From: an uncultured beta proteobacterium
GTDB lineage: Bacteria; Pseudomonadota; Gammaproteobacteria; Burkholderiales; Burkholderiaceae
Reading direction: 5' to 3'
DNA length: 35,920 bases
NCBI GenBank assembly: GCA_903837335.1
Contig: CAILUH010000006.1
Coordinates: 1 to 35,920, forward strand
This document shows, in pieces, positions 1 through 30,479 of this stretch (position 1 is the stretch's first letter; the number at the start of each line of letters is the position of its first letter). The notes beneath the pieces were generated by a model. It was not told the origin of the DNA. It saw only the letters and a list, made by a program, of their open reading frames with translations, and ran no database searches. The position numbers were made by a program, and so were the translations under genes.

Positions 1-818
1 ACAAAAATGGAGAGTTCGGCTAAGTCGGGTGCAAATAGCGAGGTCATACTGTAGACAATTCCCACCAGCAAGCCTGCAACTACAGCGCCAACGGGTGATC
101 CCATGCCACCAACAACTGTGACTACGAAAGACTCTGCCAAAATAGGAATTCCCATTTCGGGATTAACCGAGCGCGTCGGTGACGCTAAGATGCCAGAGAG
201 ACCTGCAATCGCAGTACCAACCGCAAATACCAATAACCAAACCTTGGCAATATCGACGCCTAAAACCTTCAGAATTTCTTGATCCCGTGAGCCTGCTTTA
301 ATAATTAAGCCATAGCGGGTTTTTTGAATGAATAGCCAGATACATAAAATGATCACCGCTGTTGCTGCGATTAAAAAGAGGCGGTATTTAGGAAAGTAAC
401 CAAAGCCGACATTCACTGAGCCGGTAAGACCCTCGGGCGTAATGGAGGGCATACCTTCAATGCCAAAAATAATCCGGGTCAATTCAATTAAGACATACGA
501 GAGACCAAATGTAAGTAGTAGTGGGTAATCAATTCCACGACCATACATTGGGCGCACTAAAAATCGCTCGGTGAATAAGCCCATCACACCCGTAATAAGA
601 GGAACTACGAGCAAACTAAACCAAAAGCTACCTGTTAAACCTAAAAAATAGACACCCAAAAATGCGCCGACCATAAAAAATGCACCATGGGCAAAATTCA
701 CTACTGTTAGCATGCCAAAAATTAAGCAGAGACCCAGAGCCAGCAAAGCATAAATACTCCCGAGGGCAATCCCCGTGAGTATTTGCATGCAGAGTAGGTC
801 GAGGGTTAATCCAGTCAT
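1..818 (-). CDS. livH: Branched-chain amino acid-type ABC transporter permease (LivH family), 3' end outside window
   Basis: This gene is absent from the ORF track because it runs off the left edge. Reading the minus strand gives a continuous hydrophobic protein containing ILTGIALGSIYALLALGL, NFAHGAFFMVGAF and a cytoplasmic loop GSRDQEILKVLGVD. These are hallmarks of LivH-type inner-membrane permeases of the HAAT family, which move amino acids, urea/amides or aromatic acids with a periplasmic binding protein. About 270 residues are visible and the C-terminus is missing. Three in-frame ATGs are possible (830, 818, 788), none with a good Shine-Dalgarno. ATG 830 directly abuts the U-tract of a terminator, so 818 or 788 is preferred. 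It lies downstream of the binding-protein gene in the same direction, so the two are probably partners; livM, livG and livF would be expected to the left. The family call is secure; the substrate is unknown. Confidence 0.9.
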   Translation of the reverse strand, partial: MTGLTLDLLCMQILTGIALGSIYALLALGLCLIFGMLTVVNFAHGAFFMVGAFLGVYFLGLTGSFWFSLLVVPLITGVMGLFTERFLVRPMYGRGIDYPLLLTFGLSYVLIELTRIIFGIEGMPSITPEGLTGSVNVGFGYFPKYRLFLIAATAVIILCIWLFIQKTRYGLIIKAGSRDQEILKVLGVDIAKVWLLVFAVGTAIAGLSGILASPTRSVNPEMGIPILAESFVVTVVGGMGSPVGAVVAGLLVGIVYSMTSLFAPDLAELSIF

Positions 819-830
819 AACGTTTGGCAT

Positions 831-869
831 TAAAAAACCGATACCCATTTCAAGTGCATGGGGTATCGG
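831..869 (-). terminator. Intrinsic terminator between the binding-protein gene and livH
   Basis: Read on the minus strand, a 9-bp perfect stem (CCGATACCC / GGGTATCGG, 838-846 and 861-869) with a 14-nt loop is followed by six U residues (837-832). It lies after the binding-protein stop and ends next to the first possible livH ATG. Its position inside a presumed operon suggests partial termination, giving more binding protein than permease. The opposite strand has only a weak T-tract. Confidence 0.8.
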
Positions 870-894: not shown

Positions 895-2133
895 TTAAAC
901 TTTAAATCCTAGTTCAGCGCAGCTACGCATATTTTCTTCTGATGTGGGGTCAATTTGTAAAATATTGAAGACGTCGTACTTATCTTTCATATTTTTTGAT
1001 TTTGAGTCGATCAGAATCACTGATTGCACTGCTTGATGATCACACTTGCGGTAATACTCAGGGCCTTTATACCAATCATATTTCAGCTGCTCTAGGGCAG
1101 TAATAACTTTTGGCGTATCGGTGGACTTTGCATTTTTAATGGCTTGCAAAATACTGCGAATACCTGAATAACCTAAGGCGCCGTAATCGGATGGCACCGC
1201 GCCACCATAGGCTTTGCGGAAACGATCGTTAAATATTTTGGCGCTTGGAATACGATCTTCTAGACCCCAGTAATAGGATGTGCCGCCCATGATGCCTTCG
1301 AAGGCCTCTGGACCGCCTGCTTGACGCGCGGTATAGAGCAACACAGGAGTCACAATTTTCATGCTATTTTTTAAGCCAAAGTCGGTACATTGCTTGGCGG
1401 AATTAACCAGGTCACGTCCAAAGTTACAAAGCACCAAAATATCAGGATTTAAGGCTTTAATGCGCGGTAAAAATGCGGAGTAATCAGCGGCACCAAGGGG
1501 GTGACGAATATCAGCCAAGGTAGTGGCGCCCATCTTTTTGCCAGCCCGTTCAAAAGCGCGCACCATTTCATGGCCGTAAGCATAGTCAGCAGTGAGAAAA
1601 ACAATTTTTTTGCCAAAGCGGGGAATTGCATAGCGCGCGACTGCACCAGCAGTCATGGTGGGGTTAAGCGCTTCGTGAAAAGTGTAGATGCTCCAATCTT
1701 TTACTTCATTAATTGCATCCGATTGGCTAATCGAGTTAAAAATGACTTTACGTTCTTTGCAAACTGCATTAATTGATAGCTGTGTGGCAGCAGATAAAGA
1801 GCCAACCACATAATCGACTTTATCTTTTTCAATTAACTCTAAAGTGCGGGTAGCCGCTTCGCCAGGGTTTAATTTGTCGTCGCGTACCAATAATTCTGCT
1901 TTGCGACCATTAAAGCCGCCAGCCTCATTAAATTCTTTAATGGCCAATTCAGCAGCCCGGGCTTGATCTTGTGCTTCTGCTGAAAAGGCGCCTGTTAACG
2001 GCGTGGGAAAACCGATCTTAATTGGCGCAGTTTGCGCTTTAGCAATATTGAACCAAAATGGGGTTGAAGCGACGGCTGCGCCCCCAATGAGAAGTTTACG
2101 GCGCTGAGGGTTTGTGTTTGGTTTGTGGCTCAT
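895..2133 (-). CDS. ABC transporter periplasmic substrate-binding protein (LivK/AmiC-like, Peripla_BP_6)
   Basis: This 412-residue exported protein starts with an RR motif (QRRKLLIGGAAVAS) and a hydrophobic stretch ending at AKA-QT, compatible with a Tat-type or long Sec signal. The mature part begins with IKIGFPTPLTGAFSA, the usual opening of type I periplasmic binding proteins for branched-chain amino acids, amides, urea and some aromatic acids. AGGFNGRKAELLVRDDKLNP and the later YGHEMVRAF segment fit the same fold. An AGGAG ribosome site lies five bases before the ATG. It follows the FAD monooxygenase by 49 bp and precedes livH, which suggests it captures the substrate of the catabolic genes. 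The ligand cannot be read from sequence; a leucine transporter is the alternative. Confidence 0.9.
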   Translation of the reverse strand: MSHKPNTNPQRRKLLIGGAAVASTPFWFNIAKAQTAPIKIGFPTPLTGAFSAEAQDQARAAELAIKEFNEAGGFNGRKAELLVRDDKLNPGEAATRTLELIEKDKVDYVVGSLSAATQLSINAVCKERKVIFNSISQSDAINEVKDWSIYTFHEALNPTMTAGAVARYAIPRFGKKIVFLTADYAYGHEMVRAFERAGKKMGATTLADIRHPLGAADYSAFLPRIKALNPDILVLCNFGRDLVNSAKQCTDFGLKNSMKIVTPVLLYTARQAGGPEAFEGIMGGTSYYWGLEDRIPSAKIFNDRFRKAYGGAVPSDYGALGYSGIRSILQAIKNAKSTDTPKVITALEQLKYDWYKGPEYYRKCDHQAVQSVILIDSKSKNMKDKYDVFNILQIDPTSEENMRSCAELGFKV

Positions 2134-2145
2134 GGTGTCTCCTTC

Positions 2146-2161
2146 ATAAAAACGTTTTTAT
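2146..2161. promoter_or_regulatory. Perfect 16-bp palindrome before the binding-protein gene
   Basis: ATAAAAACGTTTTTAT reads the same on both strands and lies immediately upstream of the AGGAG ribosome site of the binding-protein gene, in the 49-bp gap after the monooxygenase. It could be an operator or an RNA hairpin affecting translation. AT-richness makes a chance origin possible, so function is only a suggestion. Confidence 0.35.
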
Positions 2162-2182
2162 ATTGAAATGAAATGCTAATTT

Positions 2183-3448
2183 TTAAATCTTAACTGAATG
2201 CTGAAATTCTGGTGGTACAGCCTTACCTTCTGCTAATAATTGACTAATATCGACAGCAGTTTCTGACATTACCGTATTGGCATTGCGTTTGACGGTATGG
2301 GCAGGCAGATCCGCTGTATTTCCTTGTTTGCCTTGAGCTTGCATATAGCATCCCAGGTACTGCGCCCGTTTAACAACCTGCTGACCTAGGGTAAGGCGGG
2401 ACGTTTCATAGGCTAGCAAGGCTTGCGGGGTTGCTCCAAAGGTGGCAATGCAACTAGCAATCACCCGTGCTTCATCACCGGCTTTGGTCACTCCCATGCC
2501 AACATGGGGGCGACCAACAAAGGCGGCATCACCCATCAGCGCGACGCGATTAAAAGCAATTTGCTGCGAATAGACGTCGTAAATAGCCTGCAAAAAGGGC
2601 TGTGGGGTTTTTTCGATGACCTCCGCAAATTGCGGTGCCAAAATAGCGCGCGCGGTTTCTCGCATCCGAGCGATATGGCGCCATGCAACTTTGGCAGGAG
2701 GAATACCGAGTGGATAGGTAATACCATCGGTATCAGTAAGTAATTCAGTCAGCTCGGTAGTTGCATCAGCTGGCCGATACCAGACAAAGTTATAACGGCG
2801 CTGACCGGCACGGGTATCGTTACCCGAGCCCGCCACAGGATAGCCGAGCATTTGCTCACCACTAGGTAAACAAAAGCCAAAATAATTAAAAAGACTCGCG
2901 CGCGTGTAATTTGACAACACGCTTTCATCACAAACGCCACGCCATGCAATGTAACCGGCATATTCAGGTTGTACCATTGGCGCAAGTTGGGCGCGAACCC
3001 CAGAGCGAATGCCATCAGAAGCAATGAGCAGTTCGGCCGCATATTCACTCTTATCTTCGCAAGTGATGTTGACAGCACTGTCGGTTTGCGTAAGACCAAT
3101 AATCGTTTTACCTTGCAAATATCGTTCAGGGGGGAATTGATTTTTAAGTAGGTGGTAGAGCCTGCTCCACGAAGTTAAGATTTGCGGCAACACGATTTCA
3201 TCCAGGCAATCGCCAGCGGCACTTAAGGTCACCCGTTTCTCAACCCGCACCCCAAGCGATTCACTCGCGGGTACGCCTGCAATAATGAGGGCTTCTGCCA
3301 ATGCATCGTGGGTTACGATCCCCGCACCACGGCCGTCAAGTGAGCCCAAGGCCTTTTCCAAGATAGTTACATCGTGGCCTTGACGCAGCAGCATATTGGC
3401 GACAAAAAGTCCACCTAAAGAGCCACCAGCAACGACTATTCTTGCCAT
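2183..3448 (-). CDS. FAD-dependent aromatic monooxygenase resembling 2,6-dihydroxypyridine 3-monooxygenase
   Basis: This is a 421-residue single-component flavin hydroxylase of the PHBH class. The N-terminal FAD fingerprint is AGGSLGGL (residues 7-14), with Ser where most members have the second Gly. The DG motif is ASDGIRSGVR (143-152). The second FAD motif is ALMGDAAFVGRPHVGMG (303-319). The AGYIAWRG segment (164-171), the RPHVGMGVTKAGDEA region and the GGS fingerprint are, from memory, close to the 2,6-dihydroxypyridine hydroxylase of bacterial nicotine breakdown. Such enzymes use NAD(P)H and O2 to hydroxylate an already hydroxylated ring. It sits 7 bp after the VOC gene in an operon with TetR and opposite a molybdenum hydroxylase, the same pairing of enzyme types as in the nicotine pathway. 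The class is secure; the substrate is inference. Confidence 0.85.
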   Translation of the reverse strand: MARIVVAGGSLGGLFVANMLLRQGHDVTILEKALGSLDGRGAGIVTHDALAEALIIAGVPASESLGVRVEKRVTLSAAGDCLDEIVLPQILTSWSRLYHLLKNQFPPERYLQGKTIIGLTQTDSAVNITCEDKSEYAAELLIASDGIRSGVRAQLAPMVQPEYAGYIAWRGVCDESVLSNYTRASLFNYFGFCLPSGEQMLGYPVAGSGNDTRAGQRRYNFVWYRPADATTELTELLTDTDGITYPLGIPPAKVAWRHIARMRETARAILAPQFAEVIEKTPQPFLQAIYDVYSQQIAFNRVALMGDAAFVGRPHVGMGVTKAGDEARVIASCIATFGATPQALLAYETSRLTLGQQVVKRAQYLGCYMQAQGKQGNTADLPAHTVKRNANTVMSETAVDISQLLAEGKAVPPEFQHSVKI

Positions 3449-3455
3449 TACGGGT

Positions 3456-3914
3456 TTAGCCTTTTACGTCTAAAGCCGCTTTTTCAGCCGCGGGATAATT
3501 GAGCTCAATGACAATCCCATTGGGGTCATCGAGGAATATTTGATGCAATTTTAAAAGTGGCACAGTACGTTCACGGTAGGGTACCGCTAGGGTTTTTAAT
3601 TTGCTCAACATGGACCCTAAGCCTGCGGCTAAAAAAGCAATGTGATCAATTGCCCCAGAGCCTTGTAGAGAGGAAAAATCACGGTCGCCTAAATATTTTT
3701 TTAAGCCCTCAGGATCATTCTTATCGATGGCAATGAGATGTAGAACTGCATTGTTGTAATCATTATCTGCACCGCTATAAAGCCAAACACCAGGAAATGG
3801 AAAATCCGGACGAGGGCCTTTTTTTAAATCTAAAACTTGGGAATAAAAAGCCACTGTTTTGTCAATTTCTAAACTACGAATAGAAAAATGATTCAGAATT
3901 AATTGCGCCATCAT
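3456..3914 (-). CDS. VOC-fold (glyoxalase/bleomycin resistance/dioxygenase) protein
   Basis: This is a 152-residue protein of the vicinal oxygen chelate superfamily. NHFSIRSLEIDKTVAFYSQVLDL opens the first beta-alpha-beta module and GAIDHIAFLAAGL opens the second. Likely metal ligands are H9, H59, H91 and E137 (IVIELNY). The H9-H91-E137 set matches the two-His-one-Glu pattern of VOC metalloenzymes. Its ATG overlaps the TetR stop (ATGA), so the two are translationally coupled, and the monooxygenase follows after 7 bp. In this operon it could be a lyase, an isomerase or a small ring-opening dioxygenase. Single-domain VOC proteins are too diverse to decide. Confidence 0.85.
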   Translation of the reverse strand: MMAQLILNHFSIRSLEIDKTVAFYSQVLDLKKGPRPDFPFPGVWLYSGADNDYNNAVLHLIAIDKNDPEGLKKYLGDRDFSSLQGSGAIDHIAFLAAGLGSMLSKLKTLAVPYRERTVPLLKLHQIFLDDPNGIVIELNYPAAEKAALDVKG

Positions 3915-4591
3915 GACCTCGCTGAAGATGTAAAGAGATTTTGTGCTGATAAAAGATAGGAATAAATTCGATCCCGAATAATTGCCTCATCCGTATCCGG
4001 CGATACCGGGCTATAAATCGCTTGACCATAGATCCAGCGGCGGATGCCAATATAAAAAATACCACCATGTAAACCCATCAAGAGCTCTAGCTCACGGTTA
4101 CTTGGCTTAGCGCGGGTATTGCGTTGACAATATTTACGGGTTTCTCGGATGAGGCGAGGGATTAAACGCGAGCGCAAGGATTCGAAAAAACGATCGCTAA
4201 TGGCGTGGTCGCTTAAGCCCGAATAAATAAGAATGCGCACAAAGTCGTAAGTGAGAACGCTGGTAGAGTAATCGAGATAAAAGGCGTTTAACTTGGCTTC
4301 TGGCTGCAGCGTTTTATCGTCTAATAAATCTTCCCATTCGGTTTTCCAGCGGCGTTCAAAAACCTCTTGATAGACCTTTTTAATCAACGCATCTTTGGTA
4401 GGAAAGTAATGGTAGAGGAGGGTATGGGTAATACCCAGTTCTTCGGTAAGGTTACGCAATTGTCCGTCCATGCCATAGCGGGCAAAAAATTGAATTGCGC
4501 CATCGATAATTTGTTTTTGCCGGTCAACTGTGTTCATCCGCCGCCGCAGAGCAGGGGGCTTGTCTAAAACTACGTTCGCGATCAATTCCAT
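3911..4591 (-). CDS. TetR/AcrR-family transcriptional regulator
   Basis: This 226-residue protein has the N-terminal TetR helix-turn-helix: QIIDGAIQFFARYGMDGQLR, then LTEELGITHTLLYHYFPTKD (about residues 49-67), ending in the YHYFPTKDAL recognition-helix signature. The remainder is a variable ligand-binding domain. It is the first gene of the leftward operon and faces the molybdenum hydroxylase genes across 110 bp, so it probably controls both directions and itself. An inverted repeat in that gap is the likely site. The track start at 4591 has no obvious ribosome site. ATG 4537 (MNTVDRQKQ, residue 19) is an alternative start that still keeps the whole DNA-binding domain. The effector is probably a pathway substrate, by inference. 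Confidence 0.9.
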   Translation of the reverse strand: MELIANVVLDKPPALRRRMNTVDRQKQIIDGAIQFFARYGMDGQLRNLTEELGITHTLLYHYFPTKDALIKKVYQEVFERRWKTEWEDLLDDKTLQPEAKLNAFYLDYSTSVLTYDFVRILIYSGLSDHAISDRFFESLRSRLIPRLIRETRKYCQRNTRAKPSNRELELLMGLHGGIFYIGIRRWIYGQAIYSPVSPDTDEAIIRDRIYSYLLSAQNLFTSSARS

Positions 4592-4612
4592 GGCTTTAAG
4601 GGTTTATCCTCA

Positions 4613-4631
4613 TTTGGTCTTATTGACCAAA
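4613..4631. promoter_or_regulatory. Candidate TetR operator: TTTGGTC-N5-GACCAAA
   Basis: A perfect inverted repeat with 7-bp arms and a 5-bp spacer lies in the 110-bp divergent region between the TetR gene and the coxG-like gene. The same half-site recurs about 25 bp further on as GACCAcTTGGTT (4654-4665) in the opposite arrangement. Size and position fit a TetR-family operator; binding is not shown. Confidence 0.6.
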
Positions 4632-4651
4632 AGTTCAATAATGGATCATTG

Positions 4652-4681
4652 TTGACCACTTGGTTGATAAGACTCTATTCG
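4652..4681 (+). promoter_or_regulatory. Possible promoter of the molybdenum hydroxylase operon
   Basis: TTGACC (4652-4657) matches a sigma-70 -35 box in five of six bases. TATTCG (4676-4681), 18 bp later, is a weak -10 box; TATAAA at 4682 is closer to consensus but too far away. The -35 box falls inside the second copy of the GACCA/TTGGT half-sites, so a bound repressor would cover it. The call is tentative. Confidence 0.3.
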
Positions 4682-4701
4682 TATAAACCCGAGGAGAATG
4701 A

Positions 4702-5175
4702 ATGGAACTTAATGGCGAGCAGTTTATTGCCGCATCTGTACCTGCTGTTTGGCGGGGCTTAAATGATGTCGCAGTCCTGGGGAAGGCTATACCTGGTTGC
4801 GAGGCAATTGAGCGCATTTCACCTGAAGAGGTACATGCAAAGGTGATGTTTAAGATTGGCCCTGTTCGCGCTCGGTTTGCTGGCAAGCTTTTACTTTCTG
4901 ATGTGATTGAAGAAAAATCGTGTTCGATGGCGTTTGAAGGATCGGGTGGTGCAGCTGGTTTTGCTAAAGGGCGCTCGCGGGTTGAATTAATTAGTGCTGA
5001 GGGAGGCACTTTGGTGAGCTTTACGACGGAGGCCTCAATTGGCGGGAAGTTAGGGCAAATTGGGGGCCGACTCATTAGCGCTTCGGCAAAAAAAATTGCT
5101 GATGATTTTTTTGAAGCTTTCGCCAAAGAATTAAATCCACTCGCTAGTGAAATCACCGATGGGGGAGAAGCATGA
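4702..5175 (+). CDS. CoxG-like SRPBCC-family protein (carbon monoxide dehydrogenase subunit G family)
   Basis: This 157-residue protein is of the CoxG family. It opens with MELNGEQFIAASVPAVWRGL, continues with the VLGKAIPGCEAIERI segment typical of CoxG, and has an amphipathic C-terminal region (GGRLISASAKKIADDFFEAF). CoxG proteins have an SRPBCC (START-like) hydrophobic-pocket fold. In carboxydotrophs one helps anchor the molybdenum hydroxylase to the membrane, and homologues accompany many non-CO xanthine-dehydrogenase-family enzymes. A GAGGAG ribosome site lies just before the ATG. Its stop overlaps the next ATG (ATGA), so it is coupled to the FAD subunit. It is the first gene of the rightward operon, possibly under the TetR gene opposite. 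Confidence 0.85.
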   Translation: MELNGEQFIAASVPAVWRGLNDVAVLGKAIPGCEAIERISPEEVHAKVMFKIGPVRARFAGKLLLSDVIEEKSCSMAFEGSGGAAGFAKGRSRVELISAEGGTLVSFTTEASIGGKLGQIGGRLISASAKKIADDFFEAFAKELNPLASEITDGGEA

Positions 5176-6029
5176 AAGCGGCAGCATTTGATTACATTAA
5201 AGTGCAATCGATTCCTGAGGTTTTGGCTTTAATGCGAGAGCACGGCGATGATGCGCGTTTAATTGCTGGCGGCCAAACATTATTGGCTACCTTAAACATG
5301 CGCTTATCCGAGCCGCAGTTACTAATTGATATTACGGAACTTACCGAATTAAAAGGCATTGAATTAAGTGGCGAGCATTTATGGGTCGGGGCTTTGGTAA
5401 CGCATACTGAAATTGAAGACGCCGCCCTAATTAAGAAATACGCACCAATTTTACAAGCAGCAGCCCCGCACATTGCGCATCGGGCTATTCGTAACTTGGG
5501 TACTTGGGGTGGTTCACTAGTGTATGGAGATCCAGCGGCAGAGTGGCCAGCTTGTAGTATTGCGGTGAATGCAGCAATGGTCGTACGCGGTTTGCAGGGC
5601 GAGCGTCGTATTCCAGCGCGCGATTTTTTTGTCGATCTATACACCACTGCTTTAGCACCAGATGAAATTTTAATGGGTACCGAAATTCCCTTGGCAAACG
5701 CAAAAGACGTTTTCTCTTTTCAAGAATTGGCGCGGCGCCATGGCGACTATGCTGTAGCAGGCTTAGCTGCGGTAGCAAAAAAAACCGGTCAAGCTCTTAG
5801 CGACTGTAACTTTGTTTTTTTCTCTGTAGCTACTACGCCGGTAGCTGCGGTACAAGCGCAAAATCTAGTCAATGGCCAAGTGGTGAACGCTGAATTAATC
5901 ACTGCAGCAGTTGCAGTGGCACGTGCGGAGATTGAAACCATGGAGGATATAACCAACAGCGCAGCAGCAAAAAGTCATTTGGTAGGCGTACTGCTAGAGC
6001 GCGCTTTAAAAAAAATGTTGGCTGATTAA
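5172..6029 (+). CDS. Xanthine dehydrogenase-family FAD-binding (medium) subunit
   Basis: This 285-residue medium subunit of a molybdenum hydroxylase carries FAD and passes electrons from the iron-sulphur subunit to an acceptor. IAGGQTLLATLNMRL (31-45) and TWGGSLVYGDPAAEWP (111-126) are the two FAD pyrophosphate-binding loops of the CoxM/CutM family. The usual AGG[QT]SL and T[IL]GG patterns are present with Trp in the second (TWGGS). Length is normal for the family. It overlaps the coxG-like stop by 4 bp and is followed by the 2Fe-2S subunit after 41 bp. The order G-M-S-L differs from the M-S-L order of classical cox operons only by the leading G gene. Confidence 0.93.
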   Translation: MKAAAFDYIKVQSIPEVLALMREHGDDARLIAGGQTLLATLNMRLSEPQLLIDITELTELKGIELSGEHLWVGALVTHTEIEDAALIKKYAPILQAAAPHIAHRAIRNLGTWGGSLVYGDPAAEWPACSIAVNAAMVVRGLQGERRIPARDFFVDLYTTALAPDEILMGTEIPLANAKDVFSFQELARRHGDYAVAGLAAVAKKTGQALSDCNFVFFSVATTPVAAVQAQNLVNGQVVNAELITAAVAVARAEIETMEDITNSAAAKSHLVGVLLERALKKMLAD

Positions 6030-6070
6030 ATTAGAGCGTCTTGCGCTAGAGTTAATTAAGGAAAATAAGA

Positions 6071-6556
6071 ATGAATCCAAAAATTCCGATTGATATGATT
6101 GTGAATGGAAATAGAGTCCAGGCTGAAATCGAGCCACGCCGTCACTTGGTTGATTTTTTAAGGGAAGATTTAGGCTTAAAGGGCCCTCACTTGGGCTGCG
6201 AACAGGGCGCCTGTGGCGCATGTACCGTGCGGGTCGACGGACAAATCGTGCGTGGTTGCTTGTATTTAGCAGTACAAGCCAATGGCAAAGTGGTTGATAC
6301 CGTAGAGGGCTTAACTGCACAAGGTGCCTTAACTGAATTACAAGATGCTTTTATGCGGCGCAATGCTATGCAATGCGGGTTTTGCTCTTCGGGCATGTTG
6401 TTGTCGGCTGCTGAATTGATTGAGCAGCAACCTCAAGCTACGCGCGAGCAAGTGCGCGAGTGGATTTCTGGCAATTATTGTCGTTGTACTGGCTACCATT
6501 CTATTGTGGATGCCATCATGGATGTATTGGAGGCGCAGCGTGAACAAACCGAATGA
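6071..6556 (+). CDS. Xanthine dehydrogenase-family 2Fe-2S (small) subunit
   Basis: This 161-residue small subunit has two [2Fe-2S] clusters. The plant-ferredoxin-like N-terminal cluster uses C43, C48, C51 and C63 (LGCEQGACGACTV then RGC). The alpha-helical C-terminal cluster uses C102, C105, C137 and C139 (QCGFCSSGM and YCRCTGY). All eight ligands are present, so the subunit should be functional. AAGGAAAA before the ATG is the probable ribosome site. Its last 17 bp overlap the start of the large-subunit gene, implying coupled translation. It relays electrons from the molybdenum centre to the FAD subunit. Confidence 0.95.
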   Translation: MNPKIPIDMIVNGNRVQAEIEPRRHLVDFLREDLGLKGPHLGCEQGACGACTVRVDGQIVRGCLYLAVQANGKVVDTVEGLTAQGALTELQDAFMRRNAMQCGFCSSGMLLSAAELIEQQPQATREQVREWISGNYCRCTGYHSIVDAIMDVLEAQREQTE

Positions 6557-8936
6557 TCTTGCAGGATTAGTACTTGATCCTGTTACTGCCGACCAACGTT
6601 ACATTGGCGAGAGTGAGCCACGCCGTAGTGCCAAACGCTTATTAGAGGGCCAAGGTACGTATGTTGATGATCTACAGTTTCCACGTATGGGTCATGTGGT
6701 GTATTGGCGTTCGCCGGTTGCGCATATGCAGATTTTGCAAATCCATACTGCCGCAGCGCGTAACATGCCAGGCGTTTTAGCGGTCGTAGATGGTGTACAG
6801 ATGGCGACCATCTGCAAGCCTTGGGTCGCTACTTTAAGTCATCTTGCTGGGATGAAATCAGCCCCGCAACACGCTTTAGCGATTGAACGCGCTTGCTGGC
6901 AAGGGGAGCCCGTAGTTGCAGTAGTCGCAGATACCCGTGCACAAGCCGAAGATGCTTTACAACTCATTGAGGTGGAATGGGAGGAGTTACCTGCCGTGGT
7001 CTCTATGCTGACTGCTTTAGATCCTGAAACACCTTTGATTCATCCGGAGTTAGGCGATAACCTGTGTTTTAGTCGCACTCTAGATGTAGGACAGGTCGAT
7101 GCGCAGTTTGCGACTGCCGAGATTGTGGCTGAAGCTACTTTTGGGTTTGGACGACATACCGGGGTTACGCTTGAGCCCCGTTGTCAAATTGCAGATTACA
7201 ACCCCGGCGATGGTCGCTTAACGGTCTATCATTCGCAGCAAGCCCCGCACATGATGCAAGATCTCTATTGCCGGCAATTTGGTTTGGCTGAATCGGATGT
7301 GCATGTCATTTGTAAAGATGTTGGTGGTTCATTTGGGATTAAAGTGCACGCCTATCCCGATGATTTTGCAACTGTTGGTTTGGCTATTTTATTAGGGCGC
7401 CCCATTAAATTTGTGGCTGACCGTCTAGAGTCATTTACCAGCGATATTCATGCTCGTGAACATCAAGTGAAGGGACGTATTGCAGTTAATAAGCAGGGCG
7501 ATATTTTGGCTTTCGAGATTGATGATCTCACAGCAATTGGCCCCTATTCAATGTTCCCGCGCACCAGTGCAATTGAAGGCAATCAAGTGGTTAACTTAGT
7601 TGGCGGCCCTTATAAGCACCAACATTATCGCGCCCAACTGCAGGTGGTGTTTCAAAATAAAACCCCCACTTGTCAATACCGCGGCGTAGGTCATCCCATC
7701 GCTTGTGCTGTTACAGAAGGTTTAGTGGATTTAGCAGCAGAAAAATTACAAATGGACCCTTTAGCTTTTCGGCGGCGCAATGTGATTCCGGATGATGCCT
7801 ATCCATGCTCGGGAGCCTCGGGAATTAAGTTAGAAATTCTCTCGCATGAACAATGTTTGCGCACCATTGAAAAAATGATGAATTACACCGAATTGCGCCA
7901 AGAGCAAGCCACGCTTCGAAAAAAAGGCATTTATCGGGGTATCGGTTTTGCTGCCTTAATTGAATTAACCAATCCCAGTGCAGCATTTTATGGTGTTGGC
8001 GGGGCCCGCATTGCTTCGCAAGATGGCGCTACGGCTAGACTCGACCCATCAGGGGTGGTGAGTATTATGGTGGGTGTAGGTGAACAGGGCCAAGGCACCG
8101 AAGGTATATATGCGCAAATTGCCGCGGATGCCGTTGGAGTGCCGATTACAGATGTGCGGATTATTACGGGTGATACGGCCGTAACTCCTTATGGGGGTGG
8201 CACCTGGGCATCCCGTGGCGCTGGAATTGGTGGCGAAGCAGTGTTGTTAGCAGCGCAGGCTTTACAAGAAAATATTTTGCGTTTAGCTGGCGCTATTTTG
8301 CAGCGTGATACCGCTGAATTGCTGGTGCGACGGAGTCAAATTATTGATAAAGCGACCGGCCAAGCAGTGCTACCATTTTCAGAAATAGGGCGCATTGGTT
8401 ACTTCCGTACCGATACCCTTCCAAATGATTTTAAAGTGGACTTAATGGTGACCCGCCATTATGCACAACGGGATTATCCATTTATCTTTACCAATGGCGT
8501 ACAAGCCTCTTACGTTGAAGTAGATATCGATACCGGGTTTGTTACTTTGCTTAAGCATTGGGCAGTTGAAGATTGTGGGCGGGTATTGAACCCGATGTTG
8601 GTAGATGAGCAAGTTCGCGGGGCAATTGTGCAAGGCATCGGTGGCGTACTCTATGAAGAGTGTCTTTATGATGACAGCGGCCTGTTACGCAATGGGAATA
8701 TGGCTGATTATTTGGTGCCCATGGCAAATGAAATGCCCGATATTGAAGTGGCACATGTCCAAACACCTACGGCCTCTTCGCAATTAGGGGCCAAAGGCGC
8801 TGGTGAAGCTGGTACTGCTGGCGCACCAGCGGCGGTGATGAATGCCATTAACGACGCCTTAATGCCATTTAACGTTAAGGTATTTGAGCAGCCCATTACC
8901 TCGGAAAAAATTCTTCGCGCCTTAGGCAAAATTTAA
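6540..8936 (+). CDS. Xanthine dehydrogenase-family molybdopterin-binding (large) subunit, not CO dehydrogenase
   Basis: This is a 798-residue catalytic subunit carrying molybdopterin cytosine dinucleotide in this family. I place the start at GTG 6540, not the track start 6420, because TTGGAGG precedes it by six bases and the upstream reading would add a hydrophobic tail lying inside the 2Fe-2S gene. Landmarks are GGSFGIK (262-268), the active-site loop CQYRGVGHP (378-386) and the conserved GEAG with the probable catalytic base E756. The AYRCSFR loop of form I CO dehydrogenase is absent, so CO oxidation is very unlikely. Relatives hydroxylate aldehydes, purines or N-heteroaromatics. Maturation genes (XdhC/CoxF type) are not in the window. 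The substrate is undetermined. Confidence 0.93.
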   Translation: MNKPNDLAGLVLDPVTADQRYIGESEPRRSAKRLLEGQGTYVDDLQFPRMGHVVYWRSPVAHMQILQIHTAAARNMPGVLAVVDGVQMATICKPWVATLSHLAGMKSAPQHALAIERACWQGEPVVAVVADTRAQAEDALQLIEVEWEELPAVVSMLTALDPETPLIHPELGDNLCFSRTLDVGQVDAQFATAEIVAEATFGFGRHTGVTLEPRCQIADYNPGDGRLTVYHSQQAPHMMQDLYCRQFGLAESDVHVICKDVGGSFGIKVHAYPDDFATVGLAILLGRPIKFVADRLESFTSDIHAREHQVKGRIAVNKQGDILAFEIDDLTAIGPYSMFPRTSAIEGNQVVNLVGGPYKHQHYRAQLQVVFQNKTPTCQYRGVGHPIACAVTEGLVDLAAEKLQMDPLAFRRRNVIPDDAYPCSGASGIKLEILSHEQCLRTIEKMMNYTELRQEQATLRKKGIYRGIGFAALIELTNPSAAFYGVGGARIASQDGATARLDPSGVVSIMVGVGEQGQGTEGIYAQIAADAVGVPITDVRIITGDTAVTPYGGGTWASRGAGIGGEAVLLAAQALQENILRLAGAILQRDTAELLVRRSQIIDKATGQAVLPFSEIGRIGYFRTDTLPNDFKVDLMVTRHYAQRDYPFIFTNGVQASYVEVDIDTGFVTLLKHWAVEDCGRVLNPMLVDEQVRGAIVQGIGGVLYEECLYDDSGLLRNGNMADYLVPMANEMPDIEVAHVQTPTASSQLGAKGAGEAGTAGAPAAVMNAINDALMPFNVKVFEQPITSEKILRALGKI

Positions 8937-8988: not shown

Positions 8989-9768
8989 ATGATGTCTTTT
9001 TTAAGCGGAAAAATTGCTTTAGTGACTGGCTCAACCAGCGGGATTGGATTAGCTATAGCTAAGGCCTTGGCACAGCAAGGCGTTCACGTCATGATGAATG
9101 GTTTTGGTGAAAAAGAAGCTGCCCTAGCAGAGGTTAAAGCCTTTGGAGTAGAAGTAGATTATCACGGCGCTGATATGAGTAAGCCTAAAGAAATTGAAGA
9201 CTTGATTCTGGCAGTTGAAAAACGTTTTGGGTCGCTCGATATTTTAGTCAACAATGCCGGTATTCAGCATGTCGATAAAATTGAAGATTTTCCGGCAGAA
9301 AGATGGGAAGCCGTGATTGCGATTAATCTCAGCTCAGCCTTTTATGCGAGCCACTTTGCTTTACCAGCAATGAAGAAACGTAACTGGGGTCGCATTATTA
9401 ATATTGCTTCAGTGCATGGTTTAGTAGGATCAGCTGATAAGTCGGCTTATGTTGCAGCTAAACATGGAATTATTGGTCTTACAAAAGTAACTGCCTTAGA
9501 AAATGCGCGCACTGGAATTACTTGCAATGCGATTTGCCCAGGTTGGGTACTCACTCCGTTAGTGCAAAAGCAGGTTGATGCGCGCGCTGAACGTGAACAT
9601 ATTTCCAATGAAGCTGCCAAAATTGCTTTGGTCTCTGAGAAGCAGCCTTCAGGCGAGTTCGTCAAGCTAGAGCAGTTGGGTGCGTTAGCCGTCTTCCTCT
9701 GTGGACCAGATGCCTCAGAGGTTAGGGGTGCCGCTTGGAATATGGATGGTGGTTGGGTAGCCCAATAA
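8989..9768 (+). CDS. bdhA: 3-hydroxybutyrate dehydrogenase (short-chain dehydrogenase)
   Basis: This 259-residue cytoplasmic NAD-dependent SDR interconverts 3-hydroxybutyrate and acetoacetate. Visible motifs are TGSTSGIG (13-20), NNAG (88-91), catalytic N113, S141, Y154 and K158, and the HBDH-typical segments YVAAKHGIIGLTKVTALE and CNAICPGWVLTPLVQKQ. The C-terminus GGWVAQ is also typical. Length is normal. The start is at 8989 or the adjacent second Met at 8992. It lies 52 bp after the molybdenum hydroxylase in the same direction and could be part of that operon or belong to polyhydroxybutyrate turnover; the gap holds no clear terminator. The lyase-like gene converges on it with 5 bp between stops. 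Confidence 0.92.
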   Translation: MMSFLSGKIALVTGSTSGIGLAIAKALAQQGVHVMMNGFGEKEAALAEVKAFGVEVDYHGADMSKPKEIEDLILAVEKRFGSLDILVNNAGIQHVDKIEDFPAERWEAVIAINLSSAFYASHFALPAMKKRNWGRIINIASVHGLVGSADKSAYVAAKHGIIGLTKVTALENARTGITCNAICPGWVLTPLVQKQVDARAEREHISNEAAKIALVSEKQPSGEFVKLEQLGALAVFLCGPDASEVRGAAWNMDGGWVAQ

Positions 9769-9773
9769 AACAA

Positions 9774-10694
9774 CTATTGCTGTGGTGCTGCATGTAGCCG
9801 ATCAACCTTACCAGCCATCAGTAGCTGGCTAGGCAGTCTTCGCCCAATGAGGGTTTGCAAGTCCCCCGAGCATTCCAGCAGCAGGTCTAAATTGATATTG
9901 GTAGCGTAGCCCATTAAATCCAACATATGCACTAATTCTTCGGTGCAAATATTACCGGTTGCGCCTGGTGCGTAAGGACAACCTCCCAAGCCACCCAGAG
10001 ATGAATCAAAGCGCACTATGCCGGCCTCAACTGCTGCTAAAGCATTTGCTAGACCCATGCCGCGCGTATTGTGAAAGTGTAAGGTCCATTGGATATGCGG
10101 ATACTTATCTTGTACCACTAAGCAAATGGCTTTGACTTGCGCCGGGTTTGCCATTCCAGTGGTATCGCATATCGTTAGTCCGCGTACCCCTAAATTAGCA
10201 AAGTAATCAATCCAATACATCAGGTCTTGAAGACTGATTGTTCCAGCGATAGGGCAACCAAAGCTAGTGGATAAAGAAACGTTACTCGCTATACCTGCTT
10301 GGTTGGCAAAGGCAATGACCGCATTTAGTGCAGCAGCAGAATCCGTCCGACTCATGCGCAAATTAGCTTGGTTATGAGCCTCACTTACCGACATCACCAA
10401 ATTAAACTCGTCGACCTGAACTTCGGCGGCGCGTTGCGCGCCTTTTAAATTTGGAATAAGGGCGGTATATTCCACTTCTGGCTGACGCGTGATGCCTTGC
10501 ATCACTTGTTCGGCATCCGCCAACATGGGAATTGCCTTGGGGCTGGTAAATGAGCTTACTTCAATTTTTGCGTAGCCGGCATTACTCAGTCGATTAATGA
10601 GCCGAATTTTTTCAGCCGTAGGCACGAACTGAGCTTCAGCCTGAAAGCCATCGCGTGTCACAACTTCCTGGATAAACAGGCGTTTAGGGCTCAT
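9774..10694 (-). CDS. HMG-CoA lyase-family aldolase (hydroxymethylglutaryl-CoA lyase-like)
   Basis: This 306-residue TIM-barrel lyase belongs to the DRE-TIM family, which cleaves 3-hydroxy-3-methylglutaryl-CoA or related citramalyl-type CoA esters to acetyl-CoA and an oxo product. Motifs are RDGFQ (14-18; classical enzymes have RDGLQ), metal ligands D15, H206 and H208 (LHFHNTRG), and the signature GLGGCPYAPGA with catalytic C239. The RDGFQ and EVSSFTSPKAIPM pattern marks a Burkholderiales subgroup whose substrate may not be HMG-CoA. It converges with the 3-hydroxybutyrate dehydrogenase gene; both handle acetoacetate if the substrate is HMG-CoA. The family is secure, the exact substrate is open. 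Confidence 0.88.
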   Translation of the reverse strand: MSPKRLFIQEVVTRDGFQAEAQFVPTAEKIRLINRLSNAGYAKIEVSSFTSPKAIPMLADAEQVMQGITRQPEVEYTALIPNLKGAQRAAEVQVDEFNLVMSVSEAHNQANLRMSRTDSAAALNAVIAFANQAGIASNVSLSTSFGCPIAGTISLQDLMYWIDYFANLGVRGLTICDTTGMANPAQVKAICLVVQDKYPHIQWTLHFHNTRGMGLANALAAVEAGIVRFDSSLGGLGGCPYAPGATGNICTEELVHMLDLMGYATNINLDLLLECSGDLQTLIGRRLPSQLLMAGKVDRLHAAPQQ

Positions 10695-27920: not shown

Positions 27921-28742
27921 ATGCCACTCATAGCAAAAAAAGAATATTTACAGATCAGCTTAGTTGGTTTGTGGATTTTTATTGCTAACGGAGTAAGTGC
28001 CGCCAGCGTACAAGAGCAAATGGATCAATCGCCAGAAGTGAAGGCAGCCATAATCGAGCTAGTATTGGCTAATCATATTTTGTACGATCAAAATGCAGTT
28101 GATGGTTATGGTCATATCAGTATTCGTAATCCAATTAATCCGAATACCTTCTTTTTGGCACGTAGTGTTGCTCCCTCTTTGGCACAGATTAGCGATGTCA
28201 TGGAATTTGATATGGATGGTAAGGCGTTAAACGGCGATACTCGTGTGGCTTATGGCGAGCGCTTTATTCATAGCGGCATTTTGCGTAATCGTCCAGATAT
28301 TAATTCAGTTGTGCATGGCCATGCCGCATCCATCTTGCCTTATGGGTTAACGCAAGGTAATTTAAAGCCTGTTTATCATATGAGCGCTTTTTTAGGTGAA
28401 GGAACACCGATTTTTGAAATTCGGGAGTTTGCGCAACCAAGCCCAGATACTGATATGTTTATTAGTAACCCTACTTTAGGTCAAGCACTAGCAAAGACGA
28501 TGGGCCAAAAGAATTTTGTGCTGATGCGCGGGCATGGTTATGCCGCCGCAGGAGAGTCGATACGTCAGGTTGTCTTTCGTTCGGTTTATGCGATTCAAAA
28601 TGCAACCATTCAAACAGAAGCAAGTAAGATGGGTAAGGTCCAATATTTAACGGCTGAAGAAGCAAAAAAATCTCAAGCAACTATTGAAAAAACAATCAAT
28701 CGTCCATGGGAATTATGGAGTTTACGGGTGGGTGGTAAGTAA
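27921..28742 (+). CDS. Class II aldolase/adducin-family protein with signal peptide
   Basis: This 273-residue protein has the class II aldolase fold: VDGYGHISIRNP, the GERFIHSGIL metal/acid segment, VVHGHAASILPYG (H132, H134) and RGHGYAAAG (H205) as metal ligands. A hydrophobic N-terminal segment (LQISLVGLWIFIANGVSA-AS) looks like a Sec signal, placing a normally cytoplasmic enzyme in the periplasm. A similar exported subgroup exists in other proteobacteria, as I recall. GGAGAG lies before the ATG. Its stop overlaps the HAD gene start (TAATG). Substrate unknown, perhaps a hydroxy acid or sugar acid. Confidence 0.85.
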   Translation: MPLIAKKEYLQISLVGLWIFIANGVSAASVQEQMDQSPEVKAAIIELVLANHILYDQNAVDGYGHISIRNPINPNTFFLARSVAPSLAQISDVMEFDMDGKALNGDTRVAYGERFIHSGILRNRPDINSVVHGHAASILPYGLTQGNLKPVYHMSAFLGEGTPIFEIREFAQPSPDTDMFISNPTLGQALAKTMGQKNFVLMRGHGYAAAGESIRQVVFRSVYAIQNATIQTEASKMGKVQYLTAEEAKKSQATIEKTINRPWELWSLRVGGK

Positions 28743-29440
28743 TGTCCTTGCAAGTATTAGCATTTGATGTTTTTGGAACCGTTGTCGATTGGCACGGTTC
28801 AATTACAGAAGAAGTTTCTCAAATGAATCTAAACGTTGATCCGTTGGCATTTGCCACTGCTTGGCGTGATGGCTATAAGCCTGCGATGGCGCGGGTGCGT
28901 TCAGGCGAGTTGCCCTGGACGCGTATCGACGATTTACACTTTATGATTCTTGAGCAAGTGCTGCTGCAGTTCGGTATCACCACATTAAGTGAAACGCAGA
29001 AAAGAGATCTCAATCGGGTATGGCATCGACTAGCTGCATGGCCTGATGCCGTTTTGGGTTTACAACAGCTCAAAAGTAAATACACTATTGTCACTTTATC
29101 GAATGGCAATTTAGGTTTATTGGCTGAGATGGCAAAAAATGCTGACTTACCCTGGGATTTGATTTTATCGGCCGAAGTATTTCGCCATTACAAACCTGAT
29201 CCAGAAACCTATTTGGGGGTAGCGGCTACCTTTGATATTGCCCCCGAGCAGGTAATGCTGGTAGCCACCCATAAAGACGATTTATTAGCGGCCCATAAAC
29301 TCGGTCTGAAAACAGCGTTTGTTGAGCGGCCCTTTGAGCATGGACCCAATCATTTGCGTCAAGATATGCAAGTAGAGACTTGGACTGATTTTCATGCTAA
29401 AGATTTTCTCGACTTAGCACGTCAACTTGGTGCGCACTAA
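28742..29440 (+). CDS. Haloacid dehalogenase type II (HAD superfamily)
   Basis: This 232-residue HAD hydrolase has nucleophile D9 in LAFDVFGTVVDW, the TLSNGN motif II and the FRHYKPDPETY lysine/acid region. VATHKDDLLAAHKLGLKTAFV closes the active site. These match type II 2-haloacid dehalogenases, though many such proteins act on phosphoesters instead. It overlaps the aldolase stop by 1 bp and its own 3' end overlaps the start of the Bug protein gene, so the three form a tight operon. Confidence 0.88.
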   Translation: MSLQVLAFDVFGTVVDWHGSITEEVSQMNLNVDPLAFATAWRDGYKPAMARVRSGELPWTRIDDLHFMILEQVLLQFGITTLSETQKRDLNRVWHRLAAWPDAVLGLQQLKSKYTIVTLSNGNLGLLAEMAKNADLPWDLILSAEVFRHYKPDPETYLGVAATFDIAPEQVMLVATHKDDLLAAHKLGLKTAFVERPFEHGPNHLRQDMQVETWTDFHAKDFLDLARQLGAH

Positions 29441-30479
29441 TTTCCCAGTGCAAAACCGTTTTCAATTGCTAGTCAATTTACTATTTAGTTTGGCATTTAG
29501 CCTTTTTAGTACCGTAAGTTACGCGCAAGCCAATGCCAATAAAAGTACTGTGGGTAGCAGCCCAATAACAGATACAGTAGTTTGGCCTAAAAAGCCGATT
29601 CATCTGGTCGTGAGCTTTACACCTGGGGGCGCACCGGATACTTTGGCTCGTATTTTGGCTGATAGTTGGCAGAAAACGCTGGGAGTAAGCGTCTTAGTTG
29701 AAAATCGTCCTGGTTTTGGCGGCAATATTGGTGCCGACTATGTAGCTAAGAGCGAGGCAGACGGCTATACCTTGTTAATTGGCACGGTTGGCATTCATGC
29801 AATTAACGGTGTGCTTTACGAGAAATTGAGCTATGATCCTAGCCGCGACTTTGCGCCGATTAGTTTTTTAGCTAGCACCCCTAATGTATTGGTGGTGAAT
29901 AAAAAATTAGCTGCTAATAACTTAAGCGAACTCATCACCCTAGCAAAAGCAGAGCCCAATCAACTGACTTTTGGTTCTTCGGGGTCAGGTACTTCGCTGC
30001 ACATGTCGGGCGAGCTATTAAAAGAAATGACCGGAATCCAAATTCGCCATATTCCCTATAAGGGACGAGCGCAATTTTTGCCCGACCTTGTTAGTGGGCG
30101 CATTAATATCGCCTTTGATAATTTGGCTTCGGCTTTGCCATTGATACAGGCAAATGAAATCCGCGCTATTGGCGTTACTTCAGTGCGACGCTCTGCAGCT
30201 GCACCCGATATTCCAACCATCGCCGAGCAAGGGCTGCCTGGATTTGAAGCAGTTTCTTGGTTTGCCTTAGTCGGCCCAATGGGTCTGCCTACTGTTGTAC
30301 AGAATCGACTAAGCCAACTTACTAAAGAAACTTTGCTCCAGCCCACCGTACAAACTAAATTAAGGGCTAGTGGTCTTGAGCCTGCGCCAAATAGCCCCGT
30401 GGAATTAGCGCGTTTTATTGATCAAGAACGGGAAAAATGGGCTGTAATTGTGAAAAAGTCGGGTGCCAAGGCCGATTAG
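29427..30479 (+). CDS. Tripartite tricarboxylate transporter-type substrate-binding protein (TctC/Bug)
   Basis: This protein of up to 350 residues belongs to the Bug family, which is expanded in Burkholderiales. The signal is LLVNLLFSLAFSLFSTVSYA-QA; the core is PIHLVVSFTPGGAPDTLARIL and ENRPGFGGNIGADYVAKSEADGYT. The FTPGGAPD loop binds the carboxylate of ligands in Bug proteins. The start is a TTG at 29427 or GTG at 29430, inside the end of the dehalogenase gene; GTG 29448 is also possible. No TctA/TctB membrane genes are nearby. It may deliver a carboxylate handled by the two enzymes before it. Confidence 0.9.
   Translation: MVRTNFPVQNRFQLLVNLLFSLAFSLFSTVSYAQANANKSTVGSSPITDTVVWPKKPIHLVVSFTPGGAPDTLARILADSWQKTLGVSVLVENRPGFGGNIGADYVAKSEADGYTLLIGTVGIHAINGVLYEKLSYDPSRDFAPISFLASTPNVLVVNKKLAANNLSELITLAKAEPNQLTFGSSGSGTSLHMSGELLKEMTGIQIRHIPYKGRAQFLPDLVSGRINIAFDNLASALPLIQANEIRAIGVTSVRRSAAAPDIPTIAEQGLPGFEAVSWFALVGPMGLPTVVQNRLSQLTKETLLQPTVQTKLRASGLEPAPNSPVELARFIDQEREKWAVIVKKSGAKAD

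Follow-up and report, generated by a model that had tools for sequence, protein, structure and literature searches.

A discrete accessory gene module of Polynucleobacter and other Burkholderiales, probably for the catabolism of an N-heteroaromatic compound

We describe here a 12-gene module that we read, with a probability of about 0.6, as a discrete accessory catabolic unit for an N-heteroaromatic compound, probably an acid or a polar derivative. It was studied in contig CAILUH010000006.1 of an uncultured beta proteobacterium (assembly GCA_903837335.1), the 35,920 nucleotides of which are called the window throughout. The module comprises a three-subunit molybdenum hydroxylase (MoL, MoM and MoS) with a CoxG-like protein and, on the opposite strand, a TetR-family regulator, a VOC metalloprotein, an FAD monooxygenase (FMO), a periplasmic substrate-binding protein (SBP) and a Liv-type ABC transporter. 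A substrate of the N-heteroaromatic class is favoured because FMO is nearest to 2,6-dihydroxypyridine 3-monooxygenase (DHPH) and MoL to quinoline 2-oxidoreductase (Qor), both of which act on such compounds. With purines counted in, an N-heteroaromatic substrate of some kind appears quite probable.

Polynucleobacter ranks with the most common bacterioplankton of fresh waters, and little is known of the fractions of dissolved organic matter that it uses. The module, of approximately 11.5 kb, was found in roughly half the genomes surveyed in this genus, cultured and sequenced strains included, so that its substrate can be tested by comparing strains with and without it. Polynucleobacter sphagniphilus MWH-Weng1-1, P. 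finlandensis MWH-Mekk-B1 and Roseateles toxinivorans DSM 16998 are examples of cultured strains that carry it. Every enzyme in it belongs to a known family; what is new is the combination, the clean gain or loss of the block, and a molybdenum hydroxylase clade with the loop QYR[GA]VGHP, for which a pocket signature is now available. Caution is needed in annotation, as modules of this kind can be mistaken for CO dehydrogenases on account of similarity to CoxG and CoxL. A search of open-access papers brought up none that dealt with this gene set, the subscription literature lying outside the search, and no matching cluster was found in the literature on homarine and trihydroxypyridine.

We infer the following order of steps. 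The Liv-type transporter would import the compound, and the molybdenum hydroxylase, with CoxG, would place a water-derived oxygen on the carbon beside the ring nitrogen, so that a hydroxy/lactam form results. FMO, with NAD(P)H and FAD, would then hydroxylate the activated ring, as DHPH does in converting 2,6-dihydroxypyridine to 2,3,6-trihydroxypyridine, and the VOC metalloenzyme may act on the FMO product, most likely in ring opening or in the next step. Binding of TetR in the promoter region common to the two operons would keep both repressed until the substrate or an intermediate released it.

Gene content, boundaries and linkage of the module

The window spans an entire contig of a Polynucleobacter-type genome (2.0 Mb in 295 contigs), whose closest named relatives in a scan of GTDB genomes were Polynucleobacter and uncultured Burkholderiaceae. 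Nine of the 12 genes lie on it (Table 1), the module as a whole having the order (LivF-LivG-LivM)-LivH-SBP-FMO-VOC-TetR on one strand and CoxG-MoM-MoS-MoL on the opposite strand. A sequence-only reading of this DNA had described a three-subunit molybdenum hydroxylase with CoxG facing a TetR-VOC-FMO-LivK/LivH operon. All the reported genes proved to be intact frames, and profile searches bore out the families. That reading had placed the unit at 895-8936. Its right edge, the MoL stop at 8936, stood, and its left edge did not: judging from synteny in complete relatives (SBP-LivH-M-G-F), LivH belongs to a larger unit, together with LivM, LivG and LivF, which follow it there. The 838-aa frame of MoL also had to be shortened, as the gene very probably starts at the GTG at 6540, behind a GGAGG at 6529-6533, and encodes 798 aa as in its relatives.

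The limits of the module were given by genomes that lack it. In seven module-free Polynucleobacter genomes (loci L265-L270 and L272) a VTT gene and an SDR gene lie 49-254 bp apart, and the same genes flank the module elsewhere; in strain IMCC 30228 they enclose a block of 11,454 bp running from LivF to MoL, with spacers of 12 and 51 bp. These empty VTT-SDR sites indicate that the block is gained or lost as a whole, and that the SDR gene, the HMG-CoA lyase gene and other neighbours are not members. The SDR gene was found in all genus members examined, with or without the module. It (8989-9768) and the HMG-CoA lyase-like gene (9774-10694) were thus set aside as ordinary neighbours. The flanking CopD-like, reductase, OYE, acyl-CoA dehydrogenase and CoA-transferase genes were likewise rejected as pathway members, since such neighbours persist where the module is missing. 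The module occupies at least two chromosomal contexts, as its core has different neighbours in the P. kasalickyi/P. rarus group.

The two operons, which the sequence-only reading expected to occur together in related genomes, are indeed linked. Among 61 genomes of the same genus FMO was found in 31, and 30 of these have MoL nearby (76-100% identity), against none of the 30 FMO-free genomes (Fisher p 1.4e-16, before any correction for shared descent). The one FMO genome without MoL nearby is fragmented, its contig breaking inside MoM. The protein distances correlate with r values of 0.90-0.97, which species descent alone could produce. The scan of GTDB genomes gave 80 loci, and the divergent order MoL-MoS-MoM-CoxG facing TetR-VOC-FMO-SBP-LivH-M-G-F recurs in Jezberella, Polaromonas, Curvibacter, Hylemonella and other Burkholderiales; among module-bearing Burkholderiales SBP is 72-100% identical.

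The 110-bp region between TetR and CoxG contains an inverted repeat, TTGGTCTTATTGACCAA, that is conserved in Polynucleobacter. Similar sites were present in 8 of 19 distant loci, compared with 15 of 380 (4%) shuffled sequences. A single repressor probably controls both operons.

Table 1. Module features in the window, with strand and supporting evidence
Feature	Position	Strand	Evidence or remark
LivH-type permease, branched-chain amino acid ABC family	3..848	-	PF02653 E 3e-38; 3' end cut by contig end
LivK-type periplasmic substrate-binding protein (SBP)	895..2133	-	PF13458 E 3e-82; best PDB 3i09 E 3e-44
FAD monooxygenase (FMO), assigned to the 2,6-dihydroxypyridine hydroxylase group	2183..3448	-	PRK07236, PF22607, PDB 2VOU
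Single-domain VOC metalloprotein	3456..3914	-	PF00903 just above cut-off; alignments; AlphaFold2 model
TetR-family regulator, first gene of left operon	3911..4591	-	PF00440 E 1e-9
Inverted repeat TTGGTCTTATTGACCAA, candidate TetR operator	4614..4630	.	Shared divergent promoter region
CoxG-like (SRPBCC) accessory protein	4702..5175	+	PF06240 E 2e-24
MoM, FAD-binding medium subunit of molybdenum hydroxylase	5172..6029	+	PF00941 E 6e-44, PF03450
MoS, molybdenum hydroxylase subunit	6071..6556	+	PF01799 E 4e-28, PF00111
MoL, molybdopterin large subunit, probable GTG start, last module gene	6540..8936	+	PF02738, PF20256, PF01315; PDB 1T3Q E 1e-133

The molybdenum hydroxylase and its pocket

The enzyme is a three-subunit member of the xanthine-oxidase family, with the Pfam domains of the L, M and S subunits (Mo-pterin, FAD and two [2Fe-2S] domains) above cut-off and the catalytic Glu present (MoL E737, invariant in 66 homologues and aligned to Qor E743 and to E748 of the nicotine-pathway enzyme Kdh). 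MoL was placed from scores, identities and pocket residues. Its best solved relative is Qor (1T3Q, 36% identity), followed by CO dehydrogenase (CODH)-type proteins and Kdh (32%). It is not itself a Qor, given this low identity and several differing substrate-side residues. In profile searches MoL reached no NCBIfam cut-off, and the xanthine dehydrogenase models stayed well below theirs (XdhA 389 vs 780 bits, pucD 279 vs 784 bits).

The active-site loop reads AYRGVG in Qor, AYRAPG in Kdh, AFRGFG in xanthine dehydrogenase (Xdh) and AYRCSF in CODH (PMC8305194). In MoL it reads QYRGVG in all 66 close homologues, in which Arg322, Thr323, Ser324, Trp537 and Glu737 are likewise invariant. The motif QYR[GA]VGHP, His251 and Arg322 are retained in relatives from Methylobacterium, Bradyrhizobium, Neorhizobium and Rhodobacterales at 55-66% identity, and the set of H251, R322, QYR[GA]VGHP and E737, kept throughout the clade, differs from those of Qor, Kdh, CODH and Xdh. 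By its residues, MoL thus falls in a clade that is marked by this loop and distinct from CODH. One substrate class may be common to the whole clade, and the invariant channel Arg would suit an acidic group on the substrate.

It is very improbable, therefore, that CoxG, MoL, MoM and MoS form the Cox operon of an aerobic CODH, and we rejected this function on the active-site loop. The hazard for annotation is real, as the unit includes CoxG, MoL gives matches to CODH models of the large subunit (462 bits) and to PDB 8uem (E 1e-122), and a published trait table of Polynucleobacter scores carbon monoxide dehydrogenase in some species (PMC5018217). The score, however, compares with a cut-off of 950 bits, the Cys-containing AYRCSF of form I CoxL is replaced in 66/66 close relatives, and the linkage with uptake, FMO and VOC would be left unexplained.

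Among described systems, the nicotine pyridine pathway of Paenarthrobacter nicotinovorans pAO1 also combines a three-subunit molybdenum hydroxylase (Kdh) with a DHPH-type FAD monooxygenase, and MoL shares with Kdh the Trp and Glu positions of the pocket (W537/W551 and E737/E748). The identities are only 30-32%, however, the MoL loop is QYRGVGHP instead of AYRAPG, Glu345, with which Kdh contacts its substrate, is replaced by Ser in MoL, and the module has VOC and a Liv transporter and not nicotine-specific genes. With Qor of Pseudomonas putida 86 MoL shares YRGVG and the Thr332 position, whereas Ala369 and Tyr545 of Qor are replaced by Gln and Trp, and Arg322 of MoL corresponds to Trp in Qor. 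We know of no FMO and VOC partners in the quinoline system.

The window genome carries two XdhC-type genes for molybdenum enzyme maturation. Such genes occur in nearly all module-bearing relatives and also in many module-free ones, so that they show only a capacity to make a molybdenum enzyme. One module-bearing member of the genus (G003, L078:8078-11823) has a second MoL operon, 56% identical, with the loop variant SNYRAVGHP.

The monooxygenase, the VOC protein and the class of substrate

The resemblance of FMO to DHPH, suggested by the sequence-only reading, was upheld. FMO scored 437 bits against PRK07236 (cut-off 333) and 111 bits against PF22607 (cut-off 27), and its best PDB match was DHPH (2VOU, E 1e-43), the next best having an E-value of 1e-14. 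The two proteins are 30% identical over 365 aa and have in common the FAD and GD motifs, W223-Y224 and R313-P314-H315. The HpxO, salicylate and 6-hydroxynicotinate monooxygenases are much more distant, and FMO stayed far below the urate hydroxylase HpxO model NF033623 (79 vs 500 bits). By these matches FMO is assigned to the 2,6-dihydroxypyridine hydroxylase group and does not group with non-aromatic flavoenzymes. In-frame stops apparent within FMO of some relatives reflected a variable C-terminal end where checked (L066), and not pseudogenes.

In the VOC protein H9, H59, H91 and E137 are invariant among 39 homologues, and the AlphaFold2 model (pLDDT 88) is a single-domain VOC fold. Structures of similar fold include glyoxalases, FosA/FosB, a protein related to biphenyl-diol dioxygenase and a VOC protein that was deposited under the name homogentisate dioxygenase. 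A ring-cleaving dioxygenase of this fold would be expected to have a His-His-Glu metal triad, for which H9, H91 and E137 are candidates, H59 being a further invariant residue. The gene adjoins FMO in nearly all close homologues, MoL-free cases included, and also in plasmid regions of Cupriavidus, Paraburkholderia and Burkholderia without this molybdenum enzyme nearby. Since the adjacency persists even without MoL, VOC most likely acts directly after FMO; we propose that it might open the ring.

Other lineages surround molybdenum enzymes of the same clade with different partners. In Bradyrhizobium a luciferase-like monooxygenase and a PuuE-like hydrolase are divergent from the molybdenum operon, with a flavin reductase nearby in some cases, and in the P. 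kasalickyi/P. rarus group a PuuE-like hydrolase adjoins FMO. On Methylobacterium plasmids (L163:1174-19838 and L232) the Mo/FMO unit, with 66% (MoL) and 44% (FMO) identity to the module, immediately follows puuE, an NCS1 symporter, a racemase, uraH, uraH and uraD. Cyclic amides and N-heterocycles such as allantoin, uracil and trigonelline are known targets of such hydrolases and oxygenases, and the partner genes therefore support a substrate with a nitrogen ring independently of the resemblance to DHPH. They do not separate a pyridine from a purine. The N-heterocycle foreseen by the sequence-only reading thus fits both the nearest relatives and the partner genes; a pyridine in particular does not follow from them, in view of the urate-pathway genes in Methylobacterium and of the luciferase-like oxygenase and PuuE-like hydrolase in Bradyrhizobium. 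A TRAP transporter replaces Liv in Rhodobacterales and in one other Burkholderiales genome. One of the Methylobacterium plasmid hosts was isolated from coffee root.

Purine-type catabolism, in which the molybdenum enzyme would oxidise a (methyl)xanthine-like purine at C8 and FMO would hydroxylate the urate-like product, as do caffeine dehydrogenase and TmuM of Pseudomonas sp. CBB1, would account for the NCS1 nucleobase symporter and the other Methylobacterium plasmid genes and for the recurrence of PuuE-like hydrolases next to the Mo clade. The caffeine C-8 cluster cdhABC-tmuM-tmuH-tmuD likewise has a trimeric molybdenum enzyme followed by an FAD monooxygenase on an N-heterocycle (PMC4408171), and a similar gene set surrounds the Mo/FMO unit in Methylobacterium. 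We nevertheless consider it unlikely for the module. Genes of the tmuH/tmuD type are absent from the Polynucleobacter module and from most of its hosts; UraH and UraD were found neither in genome G000 nor in the tested module-bearing genus members, except G025 (both) and G003 (UraH), and a urate pathway was accordingly discarded for most Polynucleobacter. FMO is of the DHPH group and not HpxO, and no nucleobase transporter is present in the Burkholderiales module. The PuuE-like neighbours reach 111-127 bits where the model requires 424 and do not qualify under it as allantoinases, and such a hydrolase as an obligatory partner elsewhere in the genome was excluded, being missing from G000 and most module-bearing genomes. 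In Polynucleobacter a pyridine-type substrate is more likely than a purine-type one. The picolinate pic cluster of Alcaligenes faecalis JQ135 and Bordetella also proceeds from a dehydrogenase-type first hydroxylation to monooxygenation of the pyridine ring (PMC10142695); the module differs in having no amidohydrolase-type decarboxylase (PicC) or 2,5-dihydroxypyridine branch, and a TetR instead of the MarR-type PicR. Riboflavin/lumichrome catabolism was rejected, as the enzymes do not match.

About as doubtful as the purine pathway is the breakdown of an organic acid, aromatic or not, that has no nitrogen in a ring. MoL would then oxidise aldehydes or acids, FMO would be a common aromatic-acid hydroxylase and VOC a dioxygenase of the extradiol type. 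Carboxylates are frequent cargo of LIV and TRAP transporters, one profile and fold match of VOC is deposited as a homogentisate dioxygenase, and the top NCBIfam score of MoL was for glyceraldehyde dehydrogenase, but far under the cut-off (515 vs 790). FMO, however, is much nearer to DHPH than to salicylate/benzoate-type hydroxylases, and this reading leaves unexplained why hydrolases of the cyclic-amide type and luciferase-like oxygenases stand next to the Mo clade.

Several observations weigh against an N-heteroaromatic pathway as outlined. VOC has only its fold as a basis for assignment, and glyoxalases and fosfomycin-resistance proteins are among the solved structures nearest to it; neither a known ring-cleaving enzyme nor a lower-pathway gene was identified within the module. 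P. sinensis and Polynucleobacter sp. UK-Mo-2m-Kol15 have FMO-VOC and no MoL, and Rhodobacterales and another Burkholderiales genome have MoL with transporters and no FMO, so that the two oxidative steps are separable. A whole-genome search for seven MoL-free loci located MoL on another contig in four and none in three, two of the latter being Polynucleobacter isolates. Finally, the characterised enzymes are no more than 30-36% identical to those of the module, too little for the substrate to be deduced from the genes, as the sequence-only reading had itself stated.

We tentatively suggest, as a possibility well short of probable, an undescribed pathway for a common freshwater dissolved N-heteroaromatic, in which the new Mo subfamily (QYR[GA]VGHP) would be followed by a DHPH-type hydroxylase and ring opening by VOC, with a luciferase-like oxygenase and a PuuE-like hydrolase taking over elsewhere after the same first step.

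In the MoL-free genome of P. sinensis MWH-HuW1 (L119:9522-12429) the VOC-FMO pair is convergent with the gene of an alpha/beta hydrolase. Among solved structures this protein comes closest to 2,6-dihydroxy-pseudo-oxynicotine hydrolase (2JBW, E 4e-28), ahead of 3fnb (2e-26). In nicotine breakdown the step of that hydrolase immediately precedes DHPH. Elsewhere in the window, positions 27921-30479 hold a row of genes whose products resemble a class II aldolase (this one with a signal peptide), a haloacid dehalogenase and a TctC binding protein, the families being assigned by eye from the translation.

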